From assembly GCA_017443295.1 (NCBI GenBank), contig JAFSNT010000177.1:1-43088 (forward strand): a DNA stretch of 43,088 bases, given 5' to 3'. The stretch is from Clostridia bacterium (lineage in GTDB: Bacteria; Bacillota; Clostridia; Christensenellales; Aristaeellaceae). The notes beneath the pieces are model-generated. The model did no database searches and was not told the DNA's origin. It worked only from the letters and a program-made list of their open reading frames with translations. Positions 6,285-28,608 of the stretch are shown piece by piece. Within the stretch, counting starts at the first letter, position 1. Each line of letters begins with the position of its first letter. A program made the position numbers and the translations under genes.

Positions 6285-8372
6285 TCAGCCGATGTTTTTC
6301 TGAATGCGCAGGATGTTCTGCCCATCCTTGTATTCGTAGTCGATGCCGTCCATGCTCTTTTTCACCATGTAGATGCCTAAGCCGCCGATGGCCCTTTCCT
6401 CGGCGGACAGGGTCACGTCCGGGTCGGGCTTTTTCAGCGGGTCGTAAGGAATGCCGTGATCAATGAAGGTGATGGACACGGCCAGCGGATCCTGCAGCAC
6501 CTCCACCCGGACGGTGGCCGAGCCGACGGCGGGATTGTAAGCGTAGTGAGCGATGTTCACATACAGCTCTTCCACGGCAACGTCGATTTGCATTTTGGCT
6601 TTCAGGGGGCAGTCCAGCTGCTCCAGGTGGCTGTCCACAAAGGCAAGCACTTCATCCAGGTTTTCCACCCTGGCTTCAAGGGTAAGCTCGTTCACCTTTT
6701 TTTCCTCCGTTCCCGCATACTGAAAGCTCAGCATGGTAATATCGTCGAACTGAGGCGCTCCGCCTACAAAAGCATCAATATCGCCGCGAACCGTCTGAAG
6801 CAGCTCCTGCGGACTGGCGTTGGGATAGCGGTTGAGGGAAAACAGCATCCTGTCTGTGCCAAACAGCTCGTTGCGGGAATTGGTGGCCTCCGGCACGCCG
6901 TCGGTGTAAACGAACAGGCTGTCGCCGGGGTTCAATTCAAAGGTGTGTTCCCGGAAACGAATGCCGTCCACGGTCGCCACGGCGGGGGAGTGGCGGTAAA
7001 CCACCATTTCATACTGGCCGTTTTTTCGCTTGATCACGGGATGCTCGTGCCCCGCGTTGGCGGCCACGCCCTTGCCGGTGGAAAGCTGGATCACGGCCAG
7101 CCACACGGTGACGAACAGCTCCGCGTCGTTGCCCTGGCACAATTGCTCGTTGACGTTGGTCAGGATCTCCGCCGGGCTGTCGCCCATCTGCGCCCGGTTC
7201 TTGATGAGAGTCTTGGCGATCACCATGAACAGGGCGGCGGGCACGCCCTTGCCGGATACGTCCGCCATGACCAGACAGATGTGATCGTCGTCCACCAGGA
7301 AGAAGTCGTAGAAGTCGCCGCCCACTTCCTTGGCGGGGTGCATGGTGGCGTACAGGTCAAATTCGTGCCGGTCGGGGAAGGGCGGGAAAATGCGGGGCAG
7401 CATGTCCGCCTGTATTTGGGTGGCGATGTTCAGCTCCGCGCCGATGCGCTCCTTTTCGGCGGTGATGTGGGTCAGGTTGTCCATGTACTCCACCATGCGG
7501 CTTTCCATGGTGCGAATCTCCCGGTACAGATCGCCGATTTCGTCCTTGGAGCGGATGGGCAGGCTGATCACGTCGTCCTTGGTATAGCCGTTTTCTCCGT
7601 CCACAAAGCTCATGGTGGCCTGAGAGAGCATGGACAGGGGCTTGGTGGCCATTTTGCGCATCAGCACGATGCTCACGCCCACGGCCACCACCATCAGCAC
7701 GGCCGCGAAGAGCAGCATGTCGATCAGGAAAACCTGCCGCTCCTCCATCACGTCGTTCATGTCGATATCCACGCCCAGGATCGCGATGGCGTTGCCCTGG
7801 GAATCCACCACGGGCTCATAGGCGGAACACAGCCAGCCAAATTCCTCGGTGGTGGACACGGTGGGATCAATGTGCACGTTGCCCTGATAAGCTTCAAATT
7901 CTTCGGGCGATATTTCGATACTGCCGATATACAGCAAATCTTCGTCCGGGTCGATCAGATTCACGCTGATATTGCCCTGCAGGGATTGCAGATAAATGTA
8001 TTTGGCGTCCAGCTTCCGCCGGTACAGCACCAAATCATCGCTGATTTTCTGAAAATTGTCGTACAGGCCCTGATCCACCAGCCATTGCCGGATCATTTCC
8101 TCGTCTTCCGCCCCCACGGCGGCGTAGCGCAGGGTTTGGAAATCCGACGAGGCGATGCTTTCTTTGAAATGGGCGAGATAATCCCCGTCCACAAAAGCGG
8201 CGATGGCGGAGGCGGCTTCGGAGGTGGTCTGCTTATAGTACCGATCCACCCGTTCGCTGTTGACCTGATACGCGATCAACGTCAGGCCCCCGGCCAACAG
8301 AATGGTGATCGCCAGGATCAGTACGTTCAGTTTTACCGTCAGGGATACCCAGCCTTTTTGGTTACGCGCCAT
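6285..8372 (-). CDS. Membrane sensor with SpoIIE/RsbU-type PP2C phosphatase fused to RsbW-like HATPase
   Basis: The 695-residue protein is a one-chain partner-switching controller. Order: TM helix (about 11-35), extracellular Cache-like sensor (36-210), TM helix (213-237), HAMP and coiled linker (238-320), PP2C phosphatase (325-555), then a HATPase_c domain (560-695). Phosphatase motifs are EVGGDFYDFF (349-358), ADVSGKGVPAALFM (370-383), YTDGVPEA (489-496) and FDDITMLS (542-549), with the metal-binding Asp residues present. The HATPase keeps its N-box Asn (EELYVNIAHYAY, 601-612), DHG (638-640) and GGLGIYMVKK (663-672), so it looks active. It is probably able both to dephosphorylate and to phosphorylate a STAS protein, and the STAS gene is three genes upstream. 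AAAGGAG precedes the ATG. It is the last gene of the operon. Confidence 0.9.
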   Translation of the reverse strand: MARNQKGWVSLTVKLNVLILAITILLAGGLTLIAYQVNSERVDRYYKQTTSEAASAIAAFVDGDYLAHFKESIASSDFQTLRYAAVGAEDEEMIRQWLVDQGLYDNFQKISDDLVLYRRKLDAKYIYLQSLQGNISVNLIDPDEDLLYIGSIEISPEEFEAYQGNVHIDPTVSTTEEFGWLCSAYEPVVDSQGNAIAILGVDIDMNDVMEERQVFLIDMLLFAAVLMVVAVGVSIVLMRKMATKPLSMLSQATMSFVDGENGYTKDDVISLPIRSKDEIGDLYREIRTMESRMVEYMDNLTHITAEKERIGAELNIATQIQADMLPRIFPPFPDRHEFDLYATMHPAKEVGGDFYDFFLVDDDHICLVMADVSGKGVPAALFMVIAKTLIKNRAQMGDSPAEILTNVNEQLCQGNDAELFVTVWLAVIQLSTGKGVAANAGHEHPVIKRKNGQYEMVVYRHSPAVATVDGIRFREHTFELNPGDSLFVYTDGVPEATNSRNELFGTDRMLFSLNRYPNASPQELLQTVRGDIDAFVGGAPQFDDITMLSFQYAGTEEKKVNELTLEARVENLDEVLAFVDSHLEQLDCPLKAKMQIDVAVEELYVNIAHYAYNPAVGSATVRVEVLQDPLAVSITFIDHGIPYDPLKKPDPDVTLSAEERAIGGLGIYMVKKSMDGIDYEYKDGQNILRIQKNIG

Positions 8373-8398
8373 ACCCTATTCTCCTTTGCGTGGAACGG

Positions 8399-10174
8399 TT
8401 ACAGGATTGCCAGCACCACATTGAAGCCCTCGTAATTCCGGTAATACAGCGCCTTGGCCTGCTTTTTGACCATCATGACGCCGATGGAATCCAAAAATTC
8501 TTCCTTGGCGTCCTGCTGCAGACGGCCCATTTTCATGTCCAGGGGATTGAAATACGGCGCGCTGTTGCGGATGCGGAGGGAAAAATCGCCGTTCTTTTCC
8601 TCGCACAGCGTCACCTGAATGTATTCCTCCGGCTTGCCGGTGAAGGCTTTCTCCAGCGTGACAAGACACAGCTCCTCGGCGGCCAGCTGAAGCTGCATCG
8701 CCTTTTTCATGGGGAATTCCTGCTCCTCGCAGAAGCGTTCGATCCCCTCCATCACCCGCTGCAGCTCGTGGTCGCCGTTATCCATGACCGCGCTGAATAC
8801 GGGAATATCCGCGTCCCTGACGATTTTTCTCCGGAAATGGGTCACCATGCCCAGCAGCAGCAGGGACGCCGCCTCGCAGGCGGGGAACAGCCACCAGAAC
8901 CCGGCGGGATAGAACATGCCGAACACGAACGCGATGGGAAGCAGGAACAGGGCGCTGCGCATCAGCGTGATCAGACTGCTCAGCTTGCTTTCACCCACGG
9001 ACTGATAGAAGCCCATCAGGATGATGAGGCAGCCGCCCATGGGCGCGCTCAGGCAGAAAATGCGGATGGCGGGGACGGACACGGCCTGGGACGCATTTTC
9101 GGTGACGCCGAAGAAGGAGGAAACCGGCCCGGCGAACAGCGCCAGCAGCCCGGCCAGGGCCGCGCCCAGAGCCAGGCCCCACCCCAAAGCCAGGCGCAGC
9201 ACGCATTTCAGGCTGTCCCGGTCGTGCTCCTCGGAAAATACGGAGGCCAGAGGCTGCATGGTTTCGGAGGACGCTTGGAACACGGAGGAGGACACGTAGG
9301 AAACGTTCATCACCACGTCAAACACGGCCACGTACAGGTCGCCGTCGATGATGCCCAAATCCCCCGCGCGCAGCAGCAGGCGGTTGCCCAGGGGCAGGAA
9401 CAGAAACTGAAACACATAGCGTATGGAGGTGGAAAAGCCAATGGTGAGGGAGGAAAACACCTCTTTGCGGATTTCCTTGGGATCGGCCACCGCCCGCATA
9501 ATGGCCATCAGGCGCAGCACGCCCCGGCCGGTGAACAAATGGATGCTCATTACGATCACGCTGATTGCCTGGGCCGCCACGGTGGCGATGATGGAACCCA
9601 GCACGCCCATGTCCAGGATCAGCACCAGCACGATGTTCAGCGCCAGGTCTGCGGCGCAGCCCAGGGAAAAGCCCAGGGAGGCCAGCCGGACGCCGTCGTC
9701 GCACCGCACGAAATCGTACAGGATGAAATTGAGCATGAAAACGGGGGCGGCGGCGATCATGGGCCGGGCGTAGGCTTCGCACAGGGCCAGCAGCTCCGGA
9801 CGGCTGCCGTCCACGCCCAGCATGGAAAGCAGGGGCATCATCAGCAGATTGCCGCCCACGGCGATCACCGCGGAAATGCCCAGCAGCCACGCCGCCAGGG
9901 TGCGGAAATGGCACAGGGCGTCGTAATTCCGGGCGGCGGAGGTCAGCTTGCCGTGGGTGACGCAGCCGCCGGTGGAAAAACCGTAGCCGATCAGGTTATA
10001 GATCATGTAAACCGGCGTGACGATGCCGATGGCGGCCAGGCCCCTTTCGCCCACCCGCGCGCCGACGACCAGGGCGTCGGCAATATCCGCCACAGCCAGC
10101 GCCACGGCGGATATGAGCGCGGGCCACAGCACGCGGTAAAACATTTGTCGGGGGATCCACAGATTCTTCTTCAC
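8399..10174 (-). CDS. MATE-like multidrug/polysaccharide-flippase-type transporter fused to degenerate HATPase domain
   Basis: Residues 1-448 form about 12 membrane helices with the two-halved layout of the MATE/MOP superfamily. They are followed by a short linker and, from about residue 470 to 591, an RsbW-like ATPase fold. The tail reads LQLAAEELCLVTLEKAF (N-box position) and LDSIGVMMVKKQAKALYY (G2 position). Compared with the neighbouring phosphatase, the N-box Asn is replaced by Val, the DHG of the G1 box by NSA, and GLG by SIG. ATP binding is therefore doubtful, and the domain may be a docking module for a STAS protein (inference). The start is GTG, overlapping the TGA of the upstream DUF2156 gene by four bases (GTGA), which implies coupled translation. 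The transported substrate cannot be told from sequence. Confidence 0.85.
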   Translation of the reverse strand: MKKNLWIPRQMFYRVLWPALISAVALAVADIADALVVGARVGERGLAAIGIVTPVYMIYNLIGYGFSTGGCVTHGKLTSAARNYDALCHFRTLAAWLLGISAVIAVGGNLLMMPLLSMLGVDGSRPELLALCEAYARPMIAAAPVFMLNFILYDFVRCDDGVRLASLGFSLGCAADLALNIVLVLILDMGVLGSIIATVAAQAISVIVMSIHLFTGRGVLRLMAIMRAVADPKEIRKEVFSSLTIGFSTSIRYVFQFLFLPLGNRLLLRAGDLGIIDGDLYVAVFDVVMNVSYVSSSVFQASSETMQPLASVFSEEHDRDSLKCVLRLALGWGLALGAALAGLLALFAGPVSSFFGVTENASQAVSVPAIRIFCLSAPMGGCLIILMGFYQSVGESKLSSLITLMRSALFLLPIAFVFGMFYPAGFWWLFPACEAASLLLLGMVTHFRRKIVRDADIPVFSAVMDNGDHELQRVMEGIERFCEEQEFPMKKAMQLQLAAEELCLVTLEKAFTGKPEEYIQVTLCEEKNGDFSLRIRNSAPYFNPLDMKMGRLQQDAKEEFLDSIGVMMVKKQAKALYYRNYEGFNVVLAIL

Positions 10175-11022
10175 CTGATCGCCTCGTATACGTTCAGCCG
10201 GTCCACCGGGTTGTACAGGATTTTTGCCTGCCGAAGGCCCGAAATGCCCAAATCCTCCTCCAGGTTGATCAGGGGATAGCGGTCCTTCACGATGCGGGCC
10301 ATCTCGTGGATCAGCACCGCCGTGGTCTGGGCCGGCAGGGAAGCATCGTGCTTGGGCGTGGTCATGGTGTATTCCTCGGGGGTGTTCTCATAGCCCACCA
10401 GGAAGGCTCTCTGCCCCTCTTCCGTTTCCAGACACACGCCGCTCATGCCCAGCGCGGCGAAGGCTTCCAATTCCAGCTCCAGCACGTTCCAGTCGTCCAC
10501 GTTTCCCCGGCGTTCCGCTTCGGCGGTGCGGGCCATGTCCAGCAGGGAGGGCAGATCATCTTCCGTCATGGGGCGCACGGTATAAGGCATGTGCCTTTGA
10601 AAATGCCGCACCTTGTTGCGGAAGCTGTGGGGCATATGGTGCCCCTCCTCCAGCGCCAGAGCGGGCGCGGAGGAAACGTACTCGCTTAAATCGTCCCGCA
10701 GGATAAGATGTAACCCGAGCTGTTTCAGTTCCTCGCCCTGTTCCCGGGTGAGGTACAGAAAGTGGGGGTTCTTTTCTTCGCGGCATGCCCGCTCAACGAA
10801 GGCTAAGCACTTTTCCTTTTTTCCGCAGGGACAGTAATAGGCGTGATCGTGCTGGCTGTAAACCGCGAAAAAATCCTCGTCACCGGTGACGGAGAAGCCG
10901 TAGGTGTTTTTCCAGGCGTAAAGGCAGGGAAAAGAGAGCGACGAAAACGGGTTCCGGCGCACGTCTCGGCAGGCGTCCATCCAGGGCTTGTCTTTCAGCT
11001 CGATGGGGCGGAAATGCGTCAT
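10171..11022 (-). CDS. DUF2156 (phosphatidylglycerol lysyltransferase C-terminal-like) protein
   Basis: A 283-residue soluble protein of the GNAT-like fold seen in the C-terminal half of MprF/LPG synthases and in stand-alone DUF2156 proteins. The strongest match to the family is the C-terminal block INLEEDLGISGLRQAK followed by ILYNP, plus the SFRNKVRHFQR segment near residue 132. MprF-type enzymes transfer an aminoacyl group from tRNA to a lipid, but this protein has no membrane domain and no such role can be shown. ATG overlaps the STAS stop as ATGA, and its own TGA overlaps the MATE-HATPase start, so it is translated in tight coupling with partner-switching proteins. It might modify a cell-surface component under their control (inference). 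Confidence 0.8.
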   Translation of the reverse strand: MTHFRPIELKDKPWMDACRDVRRNPFSSLSFPCLYAWKNTYGFSVTGDEDFFAVYSQHDHAYYCPCGKKEKCLAFVERACREEKNPHFLYLTREQGEELKQLGLHLILRDDLSEYVSSAPALALEEGHHMPHSFRNKVRHFQRHMPYTVRPMTEDDLPSLLDMARTAEAERRGNVDDWNVLELELEAFAALGMSGVCLETEEGQRAFLVGYENTPEEYTMTTPKHDASLPAQTTAVLIHEMARIVKDRYPLINLEEDLGISGLRQAKILYNPVDRLNVYEAIR

Positions 11023-11318
11023 GCTTCGATATTCAGGATATCCACGAAGCCTGTTACGTCGAAGATTTCCATGATTTCGGGCTTCACGTTGCGGATCACC
11101 ATTTTGCCCTGCTTGTTCATCACCTTCTGCGCGGAGAGCAGCACCCGCAGGCCGGCGGAAGAGATGTAGTCCAGGCTGTCCAGATCCAGGATGAATTCAG
11201 AAACGCCGTTCAGGGCGGTGCGCAGTTCGTTTTCCAGCTGGGGGGAGGTGGTAGTGTCCAGACGGCCCTCCAGGGCGATGGTCAGCTGATTTCCGTTGGG
11301 CTTCTTGACGATGTTCAT
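11019..11318 (-). CDS. STAS-domain anti-sigma factor antagonist (RsbV/SpoIIAA-like)
   Basis: A 99-residue single-domain STAS protein. It has the N-terminal strand QLTIALEGRLDTTTSPQLE and the phosphorylation-site loop LDYISSAGLRVLL at about 49-61, where Ser53/Ser54 are the candidate phosphoacceptors. Proteins of this type bind an RsbW-like kinase when unphosphorylated and are released when phosphorylated. Kinase and phosphatase candidates are in the same operon. The frame opens earlier (11357), but the ATG at 11318 is preceded by AAAGGAG at ideal spacing and gives a normal-length STAS protein, so the upstream Met is rejected. It is the first gene of the operon. Confidence 0.93.
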   Translation of the reverse strand: MNIVKKPNGNQLTIALEGRLDTTTSPQLENELRTALNGVSEFILDLDSLDYISSAGLRVLLSAQKVMNKQGKMVIRNVKPEIMEIFDVTGFVDILNIEA

Positions 11319-11399
11319 GCGATGTATCTCCTTTTCAATAAAATCTGATGATGACATGGGCGGCGGCCTCCGGGGCCGAACTTTCCCATTTCACGCTCT

Positions 11400-11487: not shown

Positions 11488-14400
11488 TTATCGGGCTGGC
11501 ATCTTCCTTTTGCCTGTTTTCCGCCCCGGCTTTCTCTCCGCCAGGGCGGCGGGCAGGCGAAGCAGGAAACGGCCGGCCAAAAGCAGGGCGCCGCCCAGCA
11601 AAAGATCGTGGCAGAGGGAAAAACAGAACAGCTGCTTCTGGTTGTCCGCAAAGCCGTTGCCCAGAACGGACAGGGGGAACTGGAGCACGCCGGTGACGAT
11701 CAGGAACAGGGGCACGGCGCAAAGCATGCGTTTCCACTGGGGGCGGTCCTTTTGCAGGATGTACCAGACGCACAGGATCACAAGCGCGCCGTAATACAGG
11801 ATATAGCCCAAGAACGATCCCGGCGTGAGCCAGGAGCGCCAGCTCGGCCACAGGTTCCAGCCGTTCACCTCGTCGTGGTTCAGGTCGGAATAATCCTGGC
11901 CCACGTAGACGCGGAAGCCGGTATACAGGGCTTTGGATTCGCTGGCGGCGTGATCCAGCATGTACCACAGCTTGGCGGGATGGGTCAGGTACCATTTCAC
12001 GATGGTCAGCATGCTCACGTGGTCAAAGAATCCCTTCTGCGCTTCGTCGGAGAGGGGCTTGTACACGTAATCCATATCGTCCCCGAAGGAAACGTATTTG
12101 CCGATGTCCGGGGCCATGGCGGTATCCACGCCTAAGGCCTCCATATCGCCGATGGGATCGTCGGAAATCATGAAGATGCCGTAGAAATACGCCTGCCACA
12201 TGGTATGCTTCTGGGATACGCTGTCCTCGGTGCGGTCGGTTTGATACACGCCGAAGGTGGAAACGGCCAGCACGCCGCACAGGGCCAGGCACACCAGGGC
12301 CTGAATGGCCTGTAGGTCGTAGCGGTGGGGCCGGTGGTACCAGCACAGGATCAGGAAAAGCGCCACGGCTCCCGGCGCGGCCATCACCATCTGGGATTTG
12401 GCGGTGATCAGGATGTTGAGGGACAGGAACAGCCCCAGCAGCCAGGCGGGCCGTTTCCAGCTTTTTTTCCGGGGCATCACGCAAAGATGCACCGTACACA
12501 TGACGGAAAGCAGCACGCCCAGCAGGATGCTGCCCTCGCCGAAGAGGCTGTTGAACCAGGTGAGGTAGGTTTCGTTGAACAGCATAAGGATGAGCAGGGC
12601 GGCGGCGGGCACGATCCATTTGCCCAGCAGGGGGAACAGATCGCGGAGGATTTGCAGCACGCAGACCAGCATGATCAGCCCCATGAGCCAGGCCAGCAGA
12701 TAGGTGCTGAAGCCTAAGCCCAAAGGCTCCGTCAGCAGGCGCAGAAGCCCCGCGAACCAGTACAGGCTGTAGGTGGGCTTTAAGGGAGTGAGCTTGAGGA
12801 AATCAAAGCCGCTGGTATAGGCGTAATCCTCGATGGCGTAGCGTCCGGCCTGGCTGCCGGTGTCGAAATACGTCATGCTGTCCCAGGTGATGTCCAACTG
12901 CTCCATCATGCGGCCATAGTCGCCGTTGTTGACGGAGGCGGGATGGTTTGCGGGCAGGTATATCGCCGTCAGGAGGACGGCGCAGACCAGGCCGGTGAGC
13001 AGCAGGAAGGGATAGCGACGGTTGCTGAGGATTTCCGCCCAGCGGTTCAGCGTTTGAAGCGGGCGGGGGGCCGGGCCGTCCATACTGCGCACGGGGAGGG
13101 GAGAGGCGGCCACCACGTAGGGTTCTTCCATATATTGGGTGAACCATTGAACGGCCAGGGGCAGGCTGTAAATGGTCATGCACAGCAGCTCCGTCAGCAG
13201 CGCCGCGGTCAGGAAGGTCTGATACAGCATGTACTGCTGGCTTTGGGCGTAGCCGTCCAAAATCAGGGCGAAGGGCAAAAACAGGGTGGAGCAAAGGGAA
13301 AACAGGGCGATCAGCCCCGCCCCCATGCGGCGTTTCCGGATGGCGCGCGCCGCCCAGAAGACCGTCAGCAAAAGCTGAATGAGGAAAAAGCCCGCCCAGT
13401 TCAGCGGCAGCACCTTCCATAGGAAGGGCAGCACGCCGCCCTCCGTCCGCGCGGCGGAAAAGCCCTTTTCGTTGGGGGTCAGAGTGCTGTTCCGGGTGTT
13501 TTCAAAGCCCTTTCCGCCCCACAGCTCCCGGGTACACAGCGCCTTGAAAAGCAGGCCGGGGCGGGAGAGGTAAGCGCTCAGGATTTTTTCGGTGGACAGA
13601 CGGGAAAACAGCTTTTCCGCTTCCTGCTCGTCCCGGGGATAGTGAACGTAGCTTTCCTGGGGTTCGTAGAAGGATTTTCCCACGTCGGGCAGATAGCTGC
13701 TATCCAGCCCCCATTCCCACAAAATGGCCTCGGGATCGTCCGCTTCCCGCAGCAGGGCGTTGAAGGCGGATTCATACAGGGAGGCGTTGGAAAAATAGTC
13801 CACGTCGCCGCCCACCAGCTGAACGGCGCTGCCCACGCCGCTGAACAGCACCGCCGCCGTCAGCACCAGCAAAATGATTTTCCGGGCAAGGCCCTTGCGG
13901 CAGGAATAAATCAGCCAGCCGTTCACCGCCAGCACCAGGGGCAGGAACACGATGAGCGGCGACAGGGATTTGAGCAGCAGAATGGAGAGGAACGCCAGGG
14001 GGAAAAGCCATTTGACCCGGCGCTTTTCGTCCAGGCAGAAGGCCCGGAGCGCCGCAGCGATAAACAGCAGGGAAAACACGATGGCCGCCGCCTCGGGGTA
14101 CAGGCTGCGGAAGATGGCGCAGAAGTTGCCGTCCGTATACACAAGGCACAGGATCAGCGCGGGAAGCATCCAGGCCCGGGGCAGCTTTTCGCGCAGGGTT
14201 CCGGTGATCAGCCCCGCGGCCAGGGCCAGCAGCAGCGCCCATACGAAGGAAAGGGCGTCGATGGAAAAGGGCAGGCCGAAGGGTTCGGTGAACAGCCGCA
14301 CCAGGGCCACCGCGTACACGGTGCTGCCGCTGGCCCCGGGGGACAGGAGGGAGGCCCAGGAAAAATGGGCATAGCTGAACGCGGCCAGGGGCCGCACGTA

Positions 14401-14607
14401 CTGCAAATTCCCCAGGGCCATATCCTCCGGCGTCCAGGTCAGCCCGCACTGGGACAGGATGATTTCGTACTGCCCGAAGTCGATGGCGTACAGGCGGGGT
14501 TCCCTGACAAAGCCGATCGCCAGGCAGAGGGCAGCGCAAACAAAGGCCGCCAGCGCGGGCAAACGGCCGGATGAAGCGACAAACCATCCTTTCAGCCTTT
14601 TGATCAT
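11488..14607 (-). CDS. Double-length polytopic membrane protein, tandem GT-C-like modules
   Basis: A 1039-residue integral membrane protein with no family I can name confidently. It is built from two homologous halves. Half one has DFGQYE (43-48), FRSLYPEA (166-173), and DDPEAILWEWGLD (290-302) followed by PDVGKSF. Half two has NNGDYG (560-565), FNSLFGEG (685-692), and DDPIGDMEALGVD (816-828) followed by PDIGKYVSF. Each half has many hydrophobic helices with an acidic N-terminal loop motif and a large extracytoplasmic loop, as in GT-C lipid-linked glycosyltransferases. Gene 26790-28334 is a single copy of the same module. The last gene of the exopolysaccharide locus, it overlaps the SGNH gene by ATGA. 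A role in adding or polymerising sugars from lipid carriers is an inference. Confidence 0.75.
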   Translation of the reverse strand: MIKRLKGWFVASSGRLPALAAFVCAALCLAIGFVREPRLYAIDFGQYEIILSQCGLTWTPEDMALGNLQYVRPLAAFSYAHFSWASLLSPGASGSTVYAVALVRLFTEPFGLPFSIDALSFVWALLLALAAGLITGTLREKLPRAWMLPALILCLVYTDGNFCAIFRSLYPEAAAIVFSLLFIAAALRAFCLDEKRRVKWLFPLAFLSILLLKSLSPLIVFLPLVLAVNGWLIYSCRKGLARKIILLVLTAAVLFSGVGSAVQLVGGDVDYFSNASLYESAFNALLREADDPEAILWEWGLDSSYLPDVGKSFYEPQESYVHYPRDEQEAEKLFSRLSTEKILSAYLSRPGLLFKALCTRELWGGKGFENTRNSTLTPNEKGFSAARTEGGVLPFLWKVLPLNWAGFFLIQLLLTVFWAARAIRKRRMGAGLIALFSLCSTLFLPFALILDGYAQSQQYMLYQTFLTAALLTELLCMTIYSLPLAVQWFTQYMEEPYVVAASPLPVRSMDGPAPRPLQTLNRWAEILSNRRYPFLLLTGLVCAVLLTAIYLPANHPASVNNGDYGRMMEQLDITWDSMTYFDTGSQAGRYAIEDYAYTSGFDFLKLTPLKPTYSLYWFAGLLRLLTEPLGLGFSTYLLAWLMGLIMLVCVLQILRDLFPLLGKWIVPAAALLILMLFNETYLTWFNSLFGEGSILLGVLLSVMCTVHLCVMPRKKSWKRPAWLLGLFLSLNILITAKSQMVMAAPGAVALFLILCWYHRPHRYDLQAIQALVCLALCGVLAVSTFGVYQTDRTEDSVSQKHTMWQAYFYGIFMISDDPIGDMEALGVDTAMAPDIGKYVSFGDDMDYVYKPLSDEAQKGFFDHVSMLTIVKWYLTHPAKLWYMLDHAASESKALYTGFRVYVGQDYSDLNHDEVNGWNLWPSWRSWLTPGSFLGYILYYGALVILCVWYILQKDRPQWKRMLCAVPLFLIVTGVLQFPLSVLGNGFADNQKQLFCFSLCHDLLLGGALLLAGRFLLRLPAALAERKPGRKTGKRKMPAR

Positions 14608-17222
14608 TTCGTTTCTTCTTTCCAGGCCTGATGCAGGGCCAGCACCGTTTCATCGGTCAGGGCCTCGCTGACGGCCTCCAGCCGCCGGACGGAAATATCC
14701 GAGAAGCGGAAGGGCCGCCCGTACTGGTTCCGTTCGCAGCCGATATACAGATTGCCAAGGTAGGAAGCGATTTTGCAGTCCTTTTCCGCTTCCAGGACGC
14801 CGTTCAGGTAAACGCGGTAATGATTGCCCTCCTTCACGAGGGAAAGGATGACCTGATCCGCGGGGTGGATTTCCACTTCCACATATTCCGAGCCGAGGAT
14901 GAAGGAGAACACGGTATCACTGGTCTGCCGCACCAGCAGCCCCCTATATTTGCCGGGGGTTTCGTCAAAGCAGGAAATCACGCTGCCCCTGCGCACCGTC
15001 ACCCGATCCAGCAGGAAGGTGAGGGTCCAATCCTTTTCGGCGTTGTCGTACAGCTTGAGGCCCGTGTCCACATAGGCGCTCTTTCCGTTGCCCACGAAGC
15101 TGGGGGAAAGGGTATAGGTCACGTCCATGCCGGGATCCCGGGGTGCTTCGGCCAGGGGTTCGGGCCGCCAGGCCAGAATCTGTTCCTCCGCCATCAGCCC
15201 CCGGTATACATCCAGGTTGTACACGGTGGTGCCGGACACGCGGAAAATGTTGCCCGAGGCGTCCGTCTGTGCGCCGATGAGGAAGGTGCCGTTATAGGCC
15301 GTACACGGGCTGGCGTTCTGTTCCAGCACCTTTTCGCCGTTCAGATATACGGTGTAGGCGGAACGGTCCTTCACCACGGCCAAGCGGGAGGGCGCGTCCT
15401 TGGGCAGGGTCAGGTTCACTCCGGTGCCCGCGCCGTAAATCACGTTCAGGGTATCTTCCCCGATTTTTCGCACGAGCAGCCCGCGATAGGCCCCCGGTTC
15501 CTCGGAGAAACAGGAGAAATAGACGGTATCGCCCGCCTCGATCCGGGGTTCGATCTGGCTGAGCAGCGTAAAGGAGCTTTCGGGATCGTCAAAGAGCATG
15601 CAGCCGGTATCCACGTATTCCTGCCCGTCGCCCACGAAGCGATTCTCCAGGGACAGGATCAGATCGTCCCGGGTGACTTCCTTCATGTAAGCCGCCTTTT
15701 CCGCCAGGGGCAGCTGCTGGGGCTCCCAGGCCAGGGCGTCGGCTTCGCCCAGGGCGGAATCATAAATCACCAAATCGCGGATCAGGGTCTTGCCGAAATG
15801 CATGCGCCGTCCCTCGGCGCTCACCTCGCAGCCCAAGAGCAGCGAGCCTTCGTAGGCGTTCAGCTCGGAGTCGATCAGCTTCACGTCCTCCACCACGTTT
15901 CCGTTCACGTAAATGGTGAAGGCCTTTCCTTTTTTCACCACCACCAGACGGATCACGTCCTCCGGGTCGGCCACGCGGATGGTCATGGTAGCGCCGATGG
16001 TGATTTCCATCTTTCCGTTCACCGCCCGGCAGACCCGGAAGCCGCCCATGCCCGGCACGTCGTTAAAGCAGGCCATGACCACGCGGGTGTTATCCCCGGT
16101 TTCGGGGAGGGTGAATTCGGTGCAAAGCGTCCAGGAAGCGAGGGGGTTTTCATAGAGCCGATAGCCCGTATCGCTGTAATCCTGGATGCCGTCGCCCTGG
16201 AACTGTTCCGTGGCGGCGTAGGCGGGGGTGGACGCCAGCGTGCTGGTTTGATTCCAGATGTGGTTGGGATCCTGCCGCCGGTCGGGCAGGTCGTGCTTGC
16301 TTTTCAGCAGCTCGGCGATGGCCCTTGCATATTTGGGCAGGCCGAATTTGTTGAAATGGCCGGGGTCGAGGAAATCCTGCAAGGGATCGATGTCGATTTC
16401 CGCGTAGCTGTCGTTGAAGTTGGTGAAATCAAAGCCGTATTCCGCCACGATGGAGGCCACCCGGCGAAATTTCTGCTGTTCCGCGGCGGAAAGCTCGTAG
16501 GGCGCGGCCACGACCTCCAGCTTGACGCCGTTCGTCCGGCAGTAATCCAGCAGCATGCGGAAGTATTTTTCCTCTTTTTCTCCCAGGGCTTCTTCCCCTT
16601 GGGTGGCGTCCGGGTCCAGCACCGTGATGGGATACACCTTATCGGACGTTTCGGTGGAGTACATCTGTATGTCCTGATGGCTGTCCCAGGGAAAGTATTC
16701 AAAATCCTCCTGGGTCAGCTCCGTATACCGGTTGTGATACGTGGAGAAGCCGAAGAGCATGAACGCGCGGTCCTCCTCCGGCACGCTGGCCCAGATGTTT
16801 TCCACCTTTTCCTTGGACAGCCGCAGGGCGATGGTATTTTTCACCTGTACGGGATAAGCGCCGTATTCCTGCTGGAAGGTGAGGCTGTAAGCGTCCAGCA
16901 GCACCACCTTGGGGGTCTGGTACTTTAAGGCTTCCTGCAAATAATAATAGGTGTTCCAGATGGGCTGGATACTGCCCCAGAAGCGGTAGCCCGCGATGCC
17001 GTATTCGTCCCACAGGGTTTTGGTGCTGATGTTCATGCCCGCGTGGGAGGTGCCCAAAATCAGCACGTCCACGGTGTCCTTGGGCAGGGAATAATAATTG
17101 TGTACGGGCAGGGTGCCGTCCTCGTACTTGAATTCCATTACGCACATGAGCAGTGCGCCGATCGCCAGGAAAACAAGCACGAACAGGATGCCCTTTCCCG
17201 CTTTTTTCAGGATGTTTTTCAT
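14604..17222 (-). CDS. AlgJ/AlgX-like SGNH protein with three C-terminal LamG-like repeats
   Basis: An 872-residue protein with one N-terminal membrane anchor (about 10-29). The extracytoplasmic SGNH domain has the nucleophile motif GTSHAG (Ser59, residues 57-62) and the catalytic pair DPGH (Asp286, His289). Proteins of this class work with the MBOAT protein encoded just upstream to O-acetylate a polysaccharide outside the membrane. After residue 330 come three related modules of about 165 residues, each beginning F-V/Q-G-D/N-G, then Y-x-DTG, then L-Y/F-x-x-P/A and S/W-x-TL. These look like LamG/concanavalin-type sugar-binding folds and are unusual on this enzyme type. GGAGG precedes the ATG; the gap to the MBOAT gene is 30 bp. 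Confidence 0.85.
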   Translation of the reverse strand: MKNILKKAGKGILFVLVFLAIGALLMCVMEFKYEDGTLPVHNYYSLPKDTVDVLILGTSHAGMNISTKTLWDEYGIAGYRFWGSIQPIWNTYYYLQEALKYQTPKVVLLDAYSLTFQQEYGAYPVQVKNTIALRLSKEKVENIWASVPEEDRAFMLFGFSTYHNRYTELTQEDFEYFPWDSHQDIQMYSTETSDKVYPITVLDPDATQGEEALGEKEEKYFRMLLDYCRTNGVKLEVVAAPYELSAAEQQKFRRVASIVAEYGFDFTNFNDSYAEIDIDPLQDFLDPGHFNKFGLPKYARAIAELLKSKHDLPDRRQDPNHIWNQTSTLASTPAYAATEQFQGDGIQDYSDTGYRLYENPLASWTLCTEFTLPETGDNTRVVMACFNDVPGMGGFRVCRAVNGKMEITIGATMTIRVADPEDVIRLVVVKKGKAFTIYVNGNVVEDVKLIDSELNAYEGSLLLGCEVSAEGRRMHFGKTLIRDLVIYDSALGEADALAWEPQQLPLAEKAAYMKEVTRDDLILSLENRFVGDGQEYVDTGCMLFDDPESSFTLLSQIEPRIEAGDTVYFSCFSEEPGAYRGLLVRKIGEDTLNVIYGAGTGVNLTLPKDAPSRLAVVKDRSAYTVYLNGEKVLEQNASPCTAYNGTFLIGAQTDASGNIFRVSGTTVYNLDVYRGLMAEEQILAWRPEPLAEAPRDPGMDVTYTLSPSFVGNGKSAYVDTGLKLYDNAEKDWTLTFLLDRVTVRRGSVISCFDETPGKYRGLLVRQTSDTVFSFILGSEYVEVEIHPADQVILSLVKEGNHYRVYLNGVLEAEKDCKIASYLGNLYIGCERNQYGRPFRFSDISVRRLEAVSEALTDETVLALHQAWKEETK

Positions 17223-17252
17223 TGCATTGATCCTCCCGGTCAGCCCTTGGCG

Positions 17253-18761
17253 TCAGAACTGGAAATAGATGAAGCTGGCGGCGTCGAAGGCGGGGCCGTA
17301 AACGCCAAAGAGCAAAATCCAGAACAGAGCGCCGTAAATCACCGCCCACCGGAGGGGCAGCGGCCAGGCCAAAAGCGAATCCCGGATGGAAACGCCTTTT
17401 TCATGCAGGATATCCACGAAGAGCAGAATGAGAATGGAAAGCACCATCAGCCAGAAATCCGCCCGCTCAAGGCCCAGGGTGTACAGCGTGCCGTCCACCA
17501 GCAGCCAGGGATTCCACACGAAGGAGGATTTGATGATGTGGATGGCGGAGGCAAGATCCGTGGCCCGGAAAAACACCCAGGCGATATCCACCAGGATGAA
17601 GGTGAGCAGCATTTGGGCCAGCCGGTGGCCGAAGGATTTCCGATTGACGCCGAGCTTATCCAGGGCCTTTTCCCGGATGGGCTTGAGCATATCGCCCACG
17701 ATCTGCATGACGCCGTTCAGGCCGCCCCAGATCACGTAGGTCCACGCCGCGCCGTGCCACAGGCCGCTGACCAGGAACACGATCATGATGTTCCTGTACC
17801 GCTTCCATTTGGCGCAGCGGCTGCCGCCCAGGGGGAAATAGATGTAATCCCGGAACCAGCTGGTGAGGGAAATGTGCCACCGCCGCCAGAAATCGGCCAC
17901 GGAGGTGGCCAAATAAGGTTCCTTGAAGTTCTGCATCAGATGGAAGCCCATCACCTGGGCCGAGCCGATGGCGATGGTGGTGTAGCCGTTGAAGTCGCAG
18001 TAAATCTGCACGGCGAACAGCACAGTGCCCAAAATGGGGATCACGCCCTCGTAGGAGCCGTAGTAGTTATAAATCTGATCCACCAGCATGGCCACCCGGT
18101 CGGCCACCACCACCTTCATAAAGTAGCCCCAGATCATGAGCATGAAGCCCTTGGCGGCTTCCCGGGAATCAAAGGCATGCTTTTCCTGGAACTGCCCCAG
18201 CAGGTTGCTGCTGCGCTCGATAGGCCCGGCCACCAATTGGGGGAAGAAGGACACGAACAGCGCGTAGCGGAAGAAATTCTTTTCCGCCTTCGTTTTGCCC
18301 CGGTACACGTCGATCACGTAGCTTAAGGACTGGAAGGTGAAGAAGGAAATGCCCACCGGCAGGGCGATATTCAGCTTGGGGAGCTTTAACTGGACGCCCA
18401 CCAGAGCAAAGAGGGAAACCGTGCTTTCCGTCAGGAAATTGGCGTATTTGAACCAGGCCACCACGGACAGGGTGAAAATGATGGTGACGGTGGTGTACAG
18501 GGTGGCCCGGCCCGTGCGGCGCTTTTCCGGGGCCACGCCCTCCTTGTCCTCCCGGCGGGAAATGTCGATGAACAGCCCGTCCAGGTACGTAACCAGGGTG
18601 CAGCCTAACATGAGCAGGATAAAGCGGGGATCCCAGCACATGTAAAAGTAATAGCTGCCGATCAGCAGGAGCGCGTTGCGCACCTTCTGCCAGGGGATCA
18701 GGAAATACGCCATGGCGATGGCGGGAAAGAAAATCAGATAGGACAGGGAGTTAAATAGCAT
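17253..18761 (-). CDS. MBOAT-family membrane O-acyltransferase (AlgI/DltB-like)
   Basis: A 502-residue polytopic protein that would pass acetyl groups across the membrane to the extracellular SGNH partner encoded next. Family marks are the N-terminus LFNSLSYLIFFPAIAM, YFYMCWDPRFILL near residue 40, WHISLTSWFRDYIYFPLGG near 295, and the invariant-His segment VSGLWHGAAWTYVIWGGLNG near 330. This arrangement matches AlgI and the acetylation proteins of clostridial cellulose (ccs) loci. AAAGGAG lies before the ATG. The gene follows the GT-C gene after 51 bp within the exopolysaccharide operon. Confidence 0.95.
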   Translation of the reverse strand: MLFNSLSYLIFFPAIAMAYFLIPWQKVRNALLLIGSYYFYMCWDPRFILLMLGCTLVTYLDGLFIDISRREDKEGVAPEKRRTGRATLYTTVTIIFTLSVVAWFKYANFLTESTVSLFALVGVQLKLPKLNIALPVGISFFTFQSLSYVIDVYRGKTKAEKNFFRYALFVSFFPQLVAGPIERSSNLLGQFQEKHAFDSREAAKGFMLMIWGYFMKVVVADRVAMLVDQIYNYYGSYEGVIPILGTVLFAVQIYCDFNGYTTIAIGSAQVMGFHLMQNFKEPYLATSVADFWRRWHISLTSWFRDYIYFPLGGSRCAKWKRYRNIMIVFLVSGLWHGAAWTYVIWGGLNGVMQIVGDMLKPIREKALDKLGVNRKSFGHRLAQMLLTFILVDIAWVFFRATDLASAIHIIKSSFVWNPWLLVDGTLYTLGLERADFWLMVLSILILLFVDILHEKGVSIRDSLLAWPLPLRWAVIYGALFWILLFGVYGPAFDAASFIYFQF

Positions 18762-18812
18762 GGTTTCTTCTCCTTTCGCCAGATGCGACTGGACGAAAAA
18801 GCGGCCTGTGTT

Positions 18813-20729
18813 TTATCGTTTTTTTCCTTTTTTTCCGTGGGCTTTCTTGGCGGGAGCGGGCGTTTCCTCCGCGGGGATGTTTTCTTCCGACCCCGGGGCG
18901 GGCTGCTCCGGAACGGCGCCGGGAACGGGAGGGGGCTGCGGGGGATCGGCGGGCACCTTCAGCGGCGCGGGGTCGCTCATGGCCACGCCTTCGCTGGCCA
19001 CGATGCGGATATGCCCTTCCCGGATGGCCGCGCCCATATCAAACTGGGCGTGGAGCGCTTCGGCGCGCAGCCGCGCCCGATCCGCTTCCTCCTGCTGGAG
19101 CATGAGTACGCGGGAAGCCCGGGCCGCCATTTCCGCCGCTTCCCGCCGCTTTCTCTCCAGACGGTCCATGACGGACTGGCGCACCAGGGCCATCACTTCC
19201 CTGACGGACATGCCGCTCATCATGCAGAGCAGGGCAAGGGCGTGGTAATGATAGCGGTTCTGGTTTTCCACAAACAGATGCAGCCCGGCGGTGCCGCAGA
19301 AAAGCAAAAGGCATGCGTACATGGCGTCCGGCCCCCGGCGCAGGCACAGGCAGCCGTACACCCCGGCGGCGAACAGCAGCACCAGATAATACAGGTCGCT
19401 CACGTCCATCATCCGGTACAGGAAGCTTTCCCTTTCCGGCGTCAGGGTGCCCTGCTGATCCAGGAACAGGATGTTCCAGGATGCGCCGAAGTCGTCGTTG
19501 CCCCAAAGCACCTCAAATTTATGCACGAACAGGTCCAGCAGCGCCCGGGGATCCACCTTCAGCCGCTCCAGGGCCATGTCTCGGCACATGAGCTGGGCTT
19601 CCTGGGCGGAACCCGTGGCTTCCAGGGCGGCGTAGAGGTAATTGGCGTCGTCCTCGTTCCAGCCGCCGTAGCTTTGCAGGTTCAGGCCCACCAGCAGGTT
19701 ATAGCCGTAGGAGGCGCTGCCCGCAAGCTGCCGGTTGACGGCGTAGCCCGTCGCCATGGTGAAAATGCCGGAAAGGCCGAAATACACGGCGCAGACCAGG
19801 GCGCAGCGCTTGACGCCCCGGTTCGTCAGCCGCAGGCCCAGGGGAATATCGTTCCGGGGCAGAGAGGGCAGCTCCTTCCTGGTGGGCAGCAGGCAAATGA
19901 CCGCCGCGATCAGGAAAATCACCGCCATGGGCCGGATAAAGGAGCCGAAGGCCAGCACCGCCGCCATGGCTGTCAGCTCCCCGGCGCACAGCCAGGGATG
20001 CCGTTTCTGGCGTTCCGAATCCTTCAAGGACAGGGCGAACAGCCACGCGCCCAGCAGCAGCACCAGGGTAAACAGCGGTTCGCTGGCCACCAGATTGCTG
20101 TACAGAATATTGGAGGGCAGGAAGCAAACGGCGGCCAGGGAAACCAACCCGCACAGCCTGCCGCCCAGCAGCCGGGCGATGCGCCAGGCCACCAGACACA
20201 CGCCCACCTCCAGCACCAAATTGAACATCAGCGCGGTATGTACGCTTTCGCCGAAAACGCCCAGCATCCAGGCCAGCACCCAGGGATAGCCGAACACGTG
20301 GGGGAACATGGACACGTAATCGCAATAGCCCACGCCCGCTTCCACCAGGGTGCCCCGGTGCAGCAGCACCGCCATTTCATAATAGGTTTTATAGTCCGAA
20401 TCCGGCTCCATGGGCAGAGATCGGATCACCTGATAGCGAAGAAATGCCCCTGCCAGCAAAAGCAGCGCGGCCAGCAGGTATTCCGCCGCGAGGGCCGGGC
20501 CGGGGTAACGCCGGAGCTTTTGGCTCACGTCCAGGCGCGCCCACAGGGCGCACGCGCCCAGCAGCGCCAGGGTCAGCGCCAGCGCGCCTAAGATCCAGGC
20601 TCCTTTCAGCAGGTAAGGGTATTCCTGCCCCGCGCCCAAGCGGTTGAATACGCAGGCCATGGAAAACAGCATGCACAGCAGGAACACCAGCACCGCGAAA
20701 TAGAAGAATGCGTTTTTCCGCAGCTTCAC
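18813..20729 (-). CDS. GT-C/PMT-like membrane glycosyltransferase with charged C-terminal tail
   Basis: A 638-residue polytopic protein resembling ArnT/PMT-type GT-C enzymes that use polyprenyl-phosphate sugars. The acidic first-loop motif PDSDYKTYYE near residue 130 matches the catalytic-loop pattern of that fold. About 10-12 helices run to residue 495. The last 140 residues are cytosolic: a Lys/Arg/Ala coiled-coil-like stretch (DRLERKRREAAEMAARA), a Pro/Glu-rich segment and a basic end KKAHGKKGKKR. Start is GTG, overlapping the BcsB-like stop by four bases (GTGA), with GGAGGAG just before. Substrate unknown; the basic tail could bind membrane or a partner (inference). Confidence 0.82.
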   Translation of the reverse strand: MKLRKNAFFYFAVLVFLLCMLFSMACVFNRLGAGQEYPYLLKGAWILGALALTLALLGACALWARLDVSQKLRRYPGPALAAEYLLAALLLLAGAFLRYQVIRSLPMEPDSDYKTYYEMAVLLHRGTLVEAGVGYCDYVSMFPHVFGYPWVLAWMLGVFGESVHTALMFNLVLEVGVCLVAWRIARLLGGRLCGLVSLAAVCFLPSNILYSNLVASEPLFTLVLLLGAWLFALSLKDSERQKRHPWLCAGELTAMAAVLAFGSFIRPMAVIFLIAAVICLLPTRKELPSLPRNDIPLGLRLTNRGVKRCALVCAVYFGLSGIFTMATGYAVNRQLAGSASYGYNLLVGLNLQSYGGWNEDDANYLYAALEATGSAQEAQLMCRDMALERLKVDPRALLDLFVHKFEVLWGNDDFGASWNILFLDQQGTLTPERESFLYRMMDVSDLYYLVLLFAAGVYGCLCLRRGPDAMYACLLLFCGTAGLHLFVENQNRYHYHALALLCMMSGMSVREVMALVRQSVMDRLERKRREAAEMAARASRVLMLQQEEADRARLRAEALHAQFDMGAAIREGHIRIVASEGVAMSDPAPLKVPADPPQPPPVPGAVPEQPAPGSEENIPAEETPAPAKKAHGKKGKKR

Positions 20730-23056: not shown

Positions 23057-23081
23057 TTCAATCACCTTTTCTAAAACCAGA

Positions 23082-24336
23082 TTATTGTCCTTCCACATAG
23101 CGAACCGTTTTATCCCATTTGACTTCGCGCTTGAACAGCGCGTCCATGATGGAATCCCAGGCGGCCTTGACCACCACCAGCACCCAGAGCTTGGCGTAGG
23201 AAAACAGCATGAGCGCCACCAGCCCCAAAGATTCCAAGGTAAATTCGTTTCTTTCCAGGGAGAGGGTGAGCATCACGTTGGCGATGAACACCAGGATGGC
23301 CATGCCCCACAGGGCGGAGGAAAACCCGCCCAACTTCACCTGGATGGTGCCCAGGATGCCGCCTAAGAAGATAAAGTCGGAGGCGATCAGGGAGGTGAGC
23401 ATCACGCTGTATACCAGGGCGTAGTACAGGGTGTCCAGGCGCATGGGGCCGGCCTTGCGGTCAAAGGTGTACTTAAAGTTCTTGAGCATCACGTAAATAT
23501 TTCCCTTGGCCCAGCGCACCCGCTGCTTGAACCAGATGGGCAGCAGATGGGGTTCCTGTTCCCAGGTGACGGCCTGGGGCAGCAGCTTGATGTAATAGCC
23601 CATGCGGTAAATGCGGAAGCTGATTTCCGTGTCCTCGCTGAGGGCCTTCACGTCCCAGCCGCCCACCTGCTCGATGATGCTGCGGCGGATCACGTAATTG
23701 GTGCCCGGAATGGTGCAGAGCTTAAAGAAGAAATACCGGCCCGCCTGGTTCATGCACTGGTGGGACAGGGTTTCGATGTTCACAAACCTTGACAGGATGG
23801 AGGCGTTGCGGTTCCGGGTGCGGAATTTGCCGATCACCGCGCCCAATTTATCGTCCACCAGCAGGTTTTCCACCAGCAGGCGCAGGGCCTTGGGTTCCGG
23901 GGTGTTGTCGGCGTCGTAAATGGCGATCACCGTACCCTTGGCCACGGAAAAGCCAATGTTCAGGGCGTTGGATTTGCCGGTGCCGCCCACCACCTTGTCG
24001 GTGCTGATGCACATGAGGCGGCTTTCGGGATGGGCCGCCGCCAGCTCCGACAGAATTTCTTCCGTGTTGTCGCTGGAATTGTCGTTGACCACGATGATTT
24101 CATACTTGTCCTTGGGGTAATCGAAATTCAGCAGCGCCTGCACCGTCCGCTTGAGGACCAGGGCCTCGTTATGGGCGGGCACCAGCACGGAGACCATGGG
24201 ATACTTGCCCCCCGGCGGGGGAATGCTGCCGTCCGTTTTGTTGCACCGGTAGATATAGATATACCCGCCGATGCTCAGCGCCACGTTGAGCATCATCATG
24301 GCCCAAATGGCCGCGATGGCGTAAATGGATACGATA

Positions 24337-24350
<14 letters not shown>
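23082..24350 (-). CDS. BcsA-like processive GT2 beta-glycosyltransferase, no PilZ domain
   Basis: A 422-residue membrane synthase of the cellulose/chitin/hyaluronan type. The GT2 catalytic motifs are all present: VVND (Asp90), YDADN (DxD at 146-148), SEDTE (239-241, catalytic Asp) and QRVRW (276-280). One or two helices precede the catalytic domain and about four follow. Unlike proteobacterial BcsA it ends after the last helices, with no PilZ domain for cyclic-di-GMP. This short form matches clostridial CcsA-like enzymes. The product could be beta-1,4-glucan or another beta-glycan, since sequence alone does not decide the sugar. GGGAGGAG precedes the ATG, and the start overlaps the DUF2334 gene end by 14 bp. 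Confidence 0.92.
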
Positions 24351-25918
<1,568 letters not shown>

Positions 25919-25929
<11 letters not shown>

Positions 25930-26785
25930 AGGCAAATTCCTTTTCCACCTCGCTGATGTACTTCATGGCGTCCTTGCCGAGCGCCGCGTTGTATTGCTTA
26001 AACACCACGCTCACCTCCACGGTGAGCTGCTGGCCGGTCAGCTCCGGCACCATGTTTTCCTTCTGCACGGCGGTGAGAATGCGGCTCTTGACGATGGGCG
26101 CGCCGTTTTCCAAACTGAAATAGATGATGCCGAAGGAACCCAATTCGTCCAGGGTGAACACCCTGTCCTCCAAGCGCAGGGTATTCTGGATCACGGTGGC
26201 TAAGATGTGCCGCAGGTCGTTGAACTGGGCGCGGGTAAGCACCTTTTTGATTTCCTCGGCGTACCGCAGCCGCACCATCATCAGGCCCATGCTGGTGCCG
26301 TTGCGTTCGCTGAGAGCCATGTACCTTTTCAGGCTGCTCACCATGCTGCGCAGGTTTTCCAGGCCGGTGACGGGATCCATCACCGTCAGTTCGTCTAAGC
26401 GCTTGTTCAGCACGCCGTTCATGCCCTCGATGGAGGAGAACAGCGAAATGAACATGGACATGCCGCCTAAGGCCGCCGCCAGCAGCGCGGGCCACAGGTA
26501 AGCCGTCCACTCGATGGGGGTAAAGTAAGCTAAGCGGACGTACAGCTTGTACACAGTGAACACCAGCACCGACAGGGCCGTGATCACCGTGCCCGCCACC
26601 TGCGCCCGCAGACCCGTCAGCAGGGCGGAAAGCAGCATGGCCAGCATCAGCGCCGTGTGCTGATACATCAGCTCTTTGTCCGTCAGGCCCGTGATCAGGG
26701 CCGCGCCGAGCATGCTGAGCATGAAAAGCAGGATGCCCAAATCCTGGATCAGGATCAATCGGCTGGCAGCTTTGTTTTTTTCCAC
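25919..26785 (-). CDS. Membrane protein with degenerate GGDEF domain
   Basis: A 288-residue protein with about four N-terminal TM helices (15-115) and a cytosolic GGDEF-type fold from about 130. The DxLTGLxNRR strand is visible as MDPVTGLENLR (136-146). At the active-site loop, where active cyclases have GGDEF, the sequence is TLDEL (211-215) followed by GSFGIIYF. The two glycines needed to hold GTP are absent, so diguanylate cyclase activity is unlikely. The domain may bind a nucleotide or act as a structural regulator of the synthase. Start is GTG with GGAGG 9 nt before it, just after the stop of the GT-C-like gene. Confidence 0.85.
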
Positions 26786-26789
26786 AGCA

Positions 26790-28334: not shown

Positions 28335-28391
28335 GTTCCGTTACCACTCACTTATTTGAAAGAGACCAAGCAGCATTTTCAGCGGGGGGGT

Positions 28392-28599: not shown

Positions 28600-28608
28600 T
28601 CATGTTCC

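Follow-up and report, generated by a model that had tools for sequence, protein, structure and literature searches.

A MATE-type transporter encoded in the stretch of DNA analyzed here, 43,088 nucleotides long and called the window below, carries at its C terminus a degenerate copy of an RsbW/SpoIIAB-type domain. Judging from sequence, we think it rather probable that this domain is a pseudo-kinase serving as a docking site for unphosphorylated STAS protein, and that partner switching runs MATE transport through it. Partner switching is known chiefly as a form of sigma factor control. In the arrangement proposed here, a transporter would occupy the place usually held by the sigma factor-binding kinase.

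The fused protein and its nucleotide site

The fused gene, referred to as MATE-HAT, and the parts of its product that matter to the argument are as follows.

8399 to 10174, minus strand: MATE-HAT, a MATE transporter with a C-terminal degenerate HATPase_c_2 domain (591 amino acids, GTG start)
8855 to 10147, minus strand: MATE/DinF-like transporter part, about residues 10 to 440
8414 to 8767, minus strand: pseudo-HATPase (RsbW/SpoIIAB-like) domain, residues 470 to 587
8672 to 8677, minus strand: Glu500-Glu501; Glu501 aligns with the Glu through which RsbW contacts the phosphorylation-site Ser of RsbV
8660 to 8662, minus strand: Val505, in place of the N-box Asn
8558 to 8566, minus strand: Asn537-Ser538-Ala539, in place of the G1 motif D-x-G
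8480 to 8491, minus strand: Asp562-Ser563-Ile564-Gly565, in place of the G2 motif G-G-x-G

A first-pass annotation had described the protein as a MATE transporter fused to a degenerate RsbW-like domain, and this description is borne out, since both parts score above the curated Pfam cut-offs. MatE is matched in two stretches at 69.1 bits (cut-off, 24.9), and residues 470 to 587 match HATPase_c_2 (PF13581) at 36.3 bits (cut-off, 27.4). The solved protein closest to the transporter part is the DinF-type protein BH2163 (4lz6 and 5c6o; residues 14 to 446 aligned, E = 4.6e-22). The aligned chains of this DinF/MATE exporter consist of the transmembrane part only, whereas MATE-HAT adds the C-terminal HATPase_c_2 domain. 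Asp33 of MATE-HAT aligns with an Asp of the BH2163 chain that we take to be the known proton-site Asp; it is invariant in two alignments of 16 and 56 rows (A3 and A4) and present in at least 90% of the rows of a third (A1, 33 rows). The solved structures best matched by a profile of the pseudo-domain are SpoIIAB and RsbW, at the weak level of E = 0.023 to 0.029, while homology to the intact HATPases of the same loci is clear (hhalign E = 7.9e-15). Two other reading frames may be mentioned here. A 629-residue open frame lies antisense to MATE-HAT (8390 to 10279, plus strand), and neighboring genes have similar long shadows; it is probably an effect of composition. The window also holds a second, ordinary MATE gene without an extra domain (31410 to 32864, minus strand).

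What is left of the nucleotide site? Set against the intact copy encoded by the neighboring gene, EELYVN has become EELCLV, with Val505 in the place of the N-box Asn; DHG has become NSA at residues 537 to 539; and GGLG has become DSIG at residues 562 to 565, two of the three G2 glycines being gone. The losses reported in the first-pass annotation, namely the N-box Asn, the G1 D-x-G, and part of G2, are all correct. That annotation had also suggested a search for further fusions with a check of residue loss across them, and had named conservation of the active site in close homologues as grounds for giving up the idea. No such conservation was seen: the Asn is gone in 99 of 103 distinct MATE-HAT domains. 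The four that keep it contrast with 35 of 36 SpoIIE-fused and 45 of 46 other HATPases in the fetched loci. At G1 the Asp is kept in 77 of the 103 domains and the Gly in 19, and at G2 the first Gly is kept in 2 and the last in 101. Loss of the G1 Asp, as in the window, is therefore a minority trait, and the Asn and Gly losses are general. The glutamates behave quite differently from these residues, with Glu501 kept in 103 of 103 domains and Glu500 in 102. Of the features of RsbW/SpoIIAB serine kinases, the N-box Asn, G1, and G2 are thus wanting in MATE-HAT, and the Ser-contacting Glu is present. In addition, the lid segment of intact copies, PDPDVTL...EER..GG, is absent from the aligned MATE-HATs. 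On these grounds the pseudo-domain is predicted not to bind nucleotide.

Not counted among the 103 are duplicate rows, domains that span fewer than 90 residues, and any protein that has an ABC, SDF, or AMP-ligase domain. A set of 71 loci (from 77 pattern matches) was found through one pattern around residues 578 to 586, so that part of the conservation of Y578, R579, Y581, G583, F584, and N585 in those loci follows from how they were found; the pattern does not include the N-box, G1, or G2 positions. The four domains that keep the Asn belong to L091, L093, L132 (the copy at 5317), and L175 (the copy at 795), and the last two also keep the G1 Asp and Gly. Some members may therefore still bind nucleotide. 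Two histories would account for them: a fusion followed by loss of the nucleotide site inside the family, or fusion events of their own.

Forty of 300 genomes of the family, that of the window included, are matched at E <= 1e-30, and in 38 of them the alignment runs almost the full length of the fused protein, starting at residue 14 or earlier and ending at residue 586 or later. Of the other two, one (G171) has a MATE protein that lacks the domain, and in the other (G087) the gene is split across contigs. Among 56 aligned proteins, all 56 match MatE and 53 match HATPase_c_2 (E <= 1e-3). A sequencing or assembly artifact is ruled out by the recurrence of the fusion in many assemblies. Outside the family, MATE-HAT occurs in 8 of 13 stretches fetched from the matches of a phylum-wide search of 398 genomes. 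Named carriers are Clostridia and relatives, largely gut metagenome-assembled genomes (MAGs) labeled Christensenellaceae, Lachnospiraceae, or Oscillospiraceae; others are Coprococcus catus, several Butyrivibrio, Oscillibacter sp. MSJ-31, Anaerocolumna sedimenticola, and Selenomonas ruminantium, the last presumably a member of the Negativicutes. Red deer is the source of the nearest relative (95%), an uncultured Christensenellaceae MAG. In Anaerocolumna sedimenticola and one MAG, MATE-HAT is split into two open frames (L182, at 7980 and 8225; L183, at 7890 and 8735), through either a broken gene or a sequencing error.

Selection on the domain is strong. By the Nei-Gojobori method, dN/dS in 9 of 11 planned pairs is 0.03 to 0.21 for the domain and 0.14 to 0.31 for the transporter part, the domain being lower in all nine. 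Judged from these sequences, the nucleotide-site residues were lost long ago and in common, and the loss is not decay. In a tree of 92 transporter parts (74 fused and 18 not, thinned from 122), the fusion label changes 3 times, against a mean of 16.6 when shuffled; the tree is rooted at its midpoint only, and several divergent fused rows sit on long branches, where placement is unsure. Four unfused rows lie within the mostly fused group, of which two are cut by the end of the stretch (L058 and L212) and two are complete without the domain (L056 and L159). Because label changes and unfused rows are so few, the fusion looks old, with few origins.

The operon and its neighborhoods

The other three genes of the operon, together with the residues and domains of interest, are given below.

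11019 to 11318, minus strand: STAS protein of the anti-sigma factor antagonist type, with Ser54 in YISSAGL
10171 to 11022, minus strand: LPG_synthase_C (DUF2156-type) transferase
6285 to 8372, minus strand: sensor with a SpoIIE (PP2C) phosphatase domain (residues 361 to 551) and an intact HATPase_c_2 domain (residues 566 to 692; 6297 to 6677)

In the order of transcription on the minus strand, the genes are those for STAS, LPG_synthase_C, MATE-HAT, and the sensor. The first three are joined by 4-base overlaps at both junctions, and a 26-base gap precedes the sensor gene. The STAS start is placed at the ATG at 11318, which AAGGAG precedes; another in-frame ATG lies further upstream at 11357. 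In the sensor, the intact HATPase_c_2 scores 77.3 bits with Pfam, and a HAMP match falls below the cut-off. This protein is likely both the phosphatase and the kinase of the switch. The operon thus holds a complete partner-switching gene set, that is, a SpoIIE phosphatase, a HATPase kinase, and a STAS protein with a phosphorylatable Ser. Promoter and terminator patterns between 6000 and 12000 are near chance (1 promoter found against 2.4 expected and 7 terminators against 5.8), and tRNA and Rfam scans of the window gave no matches.

Neighborhoods were compared for 96 MATE-HAT genes, no two of which are identical over the final 300 residues. Counting genes at most 5 kb downstream and in the same orientation, 71 of the 76 loci whose flanks reach 3 kb or more have one of SpoIIE type, as do 83 of the full 96; the five well-flanked loci without one nearby are L051 to L054 and L070. 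SpoIIE directly adjoins MATE-HAT in 58 of 90 cases, and LPG_synthase_C lies upstream in 50 of 87; a STAS gene was found in 32 of 84. A wider count, within 3 kb of 104 MATE-HAT genes, gives SpoIIE 88 times, LPG_synthase_C 60 times, a formyltransferase 43 times, and STAS 38 times, which means that the STAS partner is often not adjacent, or was missed. As a control, SpoIIE, STAS, and HATPase genes were sought in the fetched flanks of seven distinct genes, from the eight best MatE matches in the window's genome, and were found in none of the seven. Wherever a STAS protein was found in the fetched loci, its phosphorylatable Ser was kept (71 of 71 rows).

Formyltransferase-like genes near MATE-HAT are seen, for example, at 9723 to 10547 in L137 and at 6194 in L163. 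Such genes and LPG_synthase_C give a hint that the cargo may be a small molecule or lipid that has been modified. In the window, the operon is preceded on the same strand by a cellulose-like exopolysaccharide cluster (11488 to 30297, minus strand) that includes GGDEF, DUF2334, GT2, BcsB, PMT_2, and MBOAT genes, a LamG-like protein, a thioredoxin/GH8-like gene, and two proteins without a Pfam match (11488 to 14607 and 26790 to 28334). Both genes that adjoin the operon are present in the 95% relative (L067 and L117); LamG-like is also present in L125, and MBOAT in L125 and L192. Relatives of BcsB or PMT_2 were not found in the other loci, whose flanks of about 8 kb may not reach so far. A link between the cluster and the operon may therefore not be general.

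Proposed STAS docking and its rivals

How could a dead kinase domain control a transporter? A signal at the membrane sensor would tip the balance toward its SpoIIE phosphatase domain or its intact HATPase kinase. When STAS is unphosphorylated and its Ser54 free, it would dock on the pseudo-domain through the surface around Glu501, and phospho-STAS would be repelled by the Glu pair. Docking would then alter the activity or the assembly of the attached MATE exporter. If the pseudo-domain does bind unphosphorylated STAS, the SpoIIE/HATPase partner switch would control transport directly.

The contact residues can be compared with those of a known complex. In the RsbV-RsbW structure (PMC7340262), RsbW Glu49 directly contacts RsbV Ser56, the site of phosphorylation. 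In the printed alignment, Glu49 corresponds to the second Glu of the pair, Glu501, in MATE-HAT, and RsbV Ser56, Tyr53, and Asp23 align with Ser54, Tyr51, and Asp21 of the window's STAS protein. Of the six RsbV-contacting residues of RsbW named in PMC7340262, four could be placed, with Glu49 kept and Asp42, Lys44, and Ser48 replaced by Gln494, Gln496, and Glu500; Arg23 and Tyr118 fall outside the printed alignment. The window's STAS protein has Glu81 and Glu84 at the positions of RsbV Arg84 and Arg87, and an acidic residue (Glu or Asp) occupies position 84 in 68 of 71 STAS rows. These replacements speak against a plain replica of the RsbW-RsbV contact. On the other side, HATPase position 490 is Lys or Arg in 33 of 36 SpoIIE-fused, 41 of 46 other, and 74 of 103 MATE-fused domains. 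The basic residue at 490 and the acidic STAS positions are no more than suggestive of a charge-swapped version of the RsbW-RsbV contact.

The domain might instead do something other than read STAS. It may, though this is rather unlikely, be a dimerization arm that pairs with an intact HATPase, that of the SpoIIE protein or a solo kinase, and so tethers the transporter, STAS not being its ligand at all. RsbW monomers pair through helix 1 and strand 1, as PMC7340262 describes; 48 of the 71 loci with enough flank have a further HATPase, either alone or fused to SpoIIE, no more than 6 kb away; and two residues ahead of the Glu helix, Phe481 (90 of 103) and Cys482 (86 of 103), are frequent in MATE-HATs but not in other HATPases. 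However, a dimerization arm leaves the complete conservation of Glu501 unexplained, because this residue is outside the helix 1/strand 1 dimer surface of RsbW as given there. That the nucleotide site was discarded but the Ser-contacting Glu was kept in every domain argues for a pseudo-kinase that reads the phosphorylation state of STAS over either a plain dimerization arm or a vestige, although conservation of the Glu pair could be structural instead. As for a functionless vestige, the least probable reading of all, the nucleotide-site residues have indeed been lost, but the domain is under tighter constraint than the transporter part in every pair compared and persists over a large, deeply split group. 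This reading was rejected on dN/dS and breadth of conservation.

Information might also flow the other way, a prospect we regard as distinctly improbable, more so than a dimerization arm: the MATE part would be a flux or ligand sensor, and the HATPase domain would titrate STAS, with a sigma factor or another distant target as the output. Partner-switching components often act on transcription, and no adjacent STAS gene was found for most loci. Against this, the transporter part is conserved, Asp33 included; related domains on ABC ATPases, SDF symporters, and an AMP-ligase (described below) fit outputs better than sensors; and no sigma factor was found among the 16 window proteins scanned with Pfam. 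Very little weight is given to a noncanonical but still active ATPase or kinase, able to bind nucleotide although the N-box Asn is missing. The G1 Asp and the last G2 Gly are frequently kept, and Glu501 could still serve as base, but the window's own G1 Asp is gone, most rows lack the Asn, the G1 Gly, and both of the leading G2 glycines together, and the lid segment is missing from the aligned MATE-HATs as well.

The preferred reading, a STAS-gated valve, draws its support from the operon, the invariant Ser-contacting Glu, the constraint on the domain, and the related domains on other transporters. The first-pass annotation had proposed that a transporter with a dead anti-sigma-like domain could be gated by a STAS protein; its fusion, its residue losses, and the conservation of those losses in homologues stand. 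STAS binding, its effect on transport together with the sign of that effect, and the substrate are the parts that we infer.

Related domains and known switches

The same dead-kinase domain appears on other proteins. Related domains with the same signature are found at the C terminus of amino acid ABC ATPases, including SBP-permease-ATPase fusions, ahead of SDF dicarboxylate symporters, and on an AMP-ligase. All of the 42 distinct non-MATE fusions (39 ABC, 2 SDF, and 1 ligase) have both Glu residues. Only one retains the Asn and only one the G1 Asp; 40 retain the G1 Gly. With an ABC-type profile, 120 of the 300 family genomes give a match at E <= 1e-6, some of these being cross-matches to MATE-HAT; the window's own genome gives one, on contig C104. 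At the thresholds used, Pfam matches to the domain, all below cut-off, were obtained for one of eight ABC-type proteins (L112), one of two SDF-type proteins, and the ligase; with matches so few and so low, homology of the non-MATE domains rests on profile comparisons. By hhalign, the ABC-type domains match the MATE-type domains at E = 1.2e-18 and intact HATPases at 1.7e-10.

Some of these genes sit among partner-switching genes. L163 carries a string of ABC-HAT, STAS, MATE-HAT, STAS, STAS, formyltransferase, LPG_synthase_C, and a second MATE-HAT, followed by SpoIIE, HATPase, STAS-APH, HATPase, and HAT-SDF. A STAS-APH gene also lies ahead of ABC-HAT by about 0.1 kb in L246 and 0.4 kb in L247. 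A STAS, SpoIIE, or separate HATPase gene was present in only 7 of 20 fetched ABC-HAT neighborhoods, so that ABC-type domains are less firmly tied to partner switching than MATE-HAT is. The fusions of STAS to an APH-type phosphotransferase (L163, 12391 to 13569; L246, 3032 to 4309; L105, 307 to 1890), of which the one in L105 also carries a HATPase with the N-box Asn kept, are possibly another partner-switch output.

How does MATE-HAT compare with known switches? With RsbW and SpoIIAB it shares the HATPase_c_2 fold, the helix with the Ser-contacting Glu, and a linked SpoIIE-type phosphatase, along with STAS in part of the loci. It differs from them in the loss of the nucleotide site, the fusion to a transporter, and a window without a sigma factor among the proteins scanned. 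The Sia and Syp (SypA/SypE) systems also use partner switching with a SpoIIE phosphatase, a HATPase kinase, and a STAS protein, and their output is not a sigma factor; in MATE-HAT the proposed output is instead a membrane transporter bearing its own pseudo-kinase receptor. In the RsbT-RsbU module of the stressosome, STAS proteins act on a HATPase domain, which in turn controls an effector. RsbT, in contrast to the MATE-HAT pseudo-domain, is a separate, active kinase, and its effector is a phosphatase. As in SLC26/SulP proteins, the transporter bears one half of a STAS/anti-sigma pair. SLC26/SulP proteins, however, bear a C-terminal STAS domain (PMC8256260), whereas MATE-HAT has the HATPase half (its domain is HATPase_c_2, not STAS), the transporter folds are unrelated, and STAS is separate. 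No description of a transporter fused to an RsbW-like domain was found among the literature matches listed, which covered titles and the beginnings of abstracts, most subscription journals and bioRxiv being outside the scope; the word MATE is absent from PMC9239204 and PMC1262709.

Overall, MATE-HAT may be a variant of partner switching, with a device that would be wider than the MATE case and with gating as a plausible function. The chances seem about even that Clostridia have a general form of post-translational transport control, in which a single family of pseudo-RsbW docking domains sits on at least three unrelated transporter types (MATE, polar amino acid ABC ATPases, and SDF) and on an AMP-ligase, and STAS proteins, switched by SpoIIE phosphatases and HATPase kinases, act as diffusible on/off signals for nutrient uptake or export rather than on sigma factors. 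If a kinase became a receptor tag on transporters, the orphan SpoIIE, STAS, and HATPase proteins of gut Clostridia would gain a direct output. Transporter regulation by reversible STAS phosphorylation would then be testable with purified parts. As the mirror image of SLC26/SulP, where the transporter has the STAS half, such an arrangement may help explain what STAS domains do on transporters.
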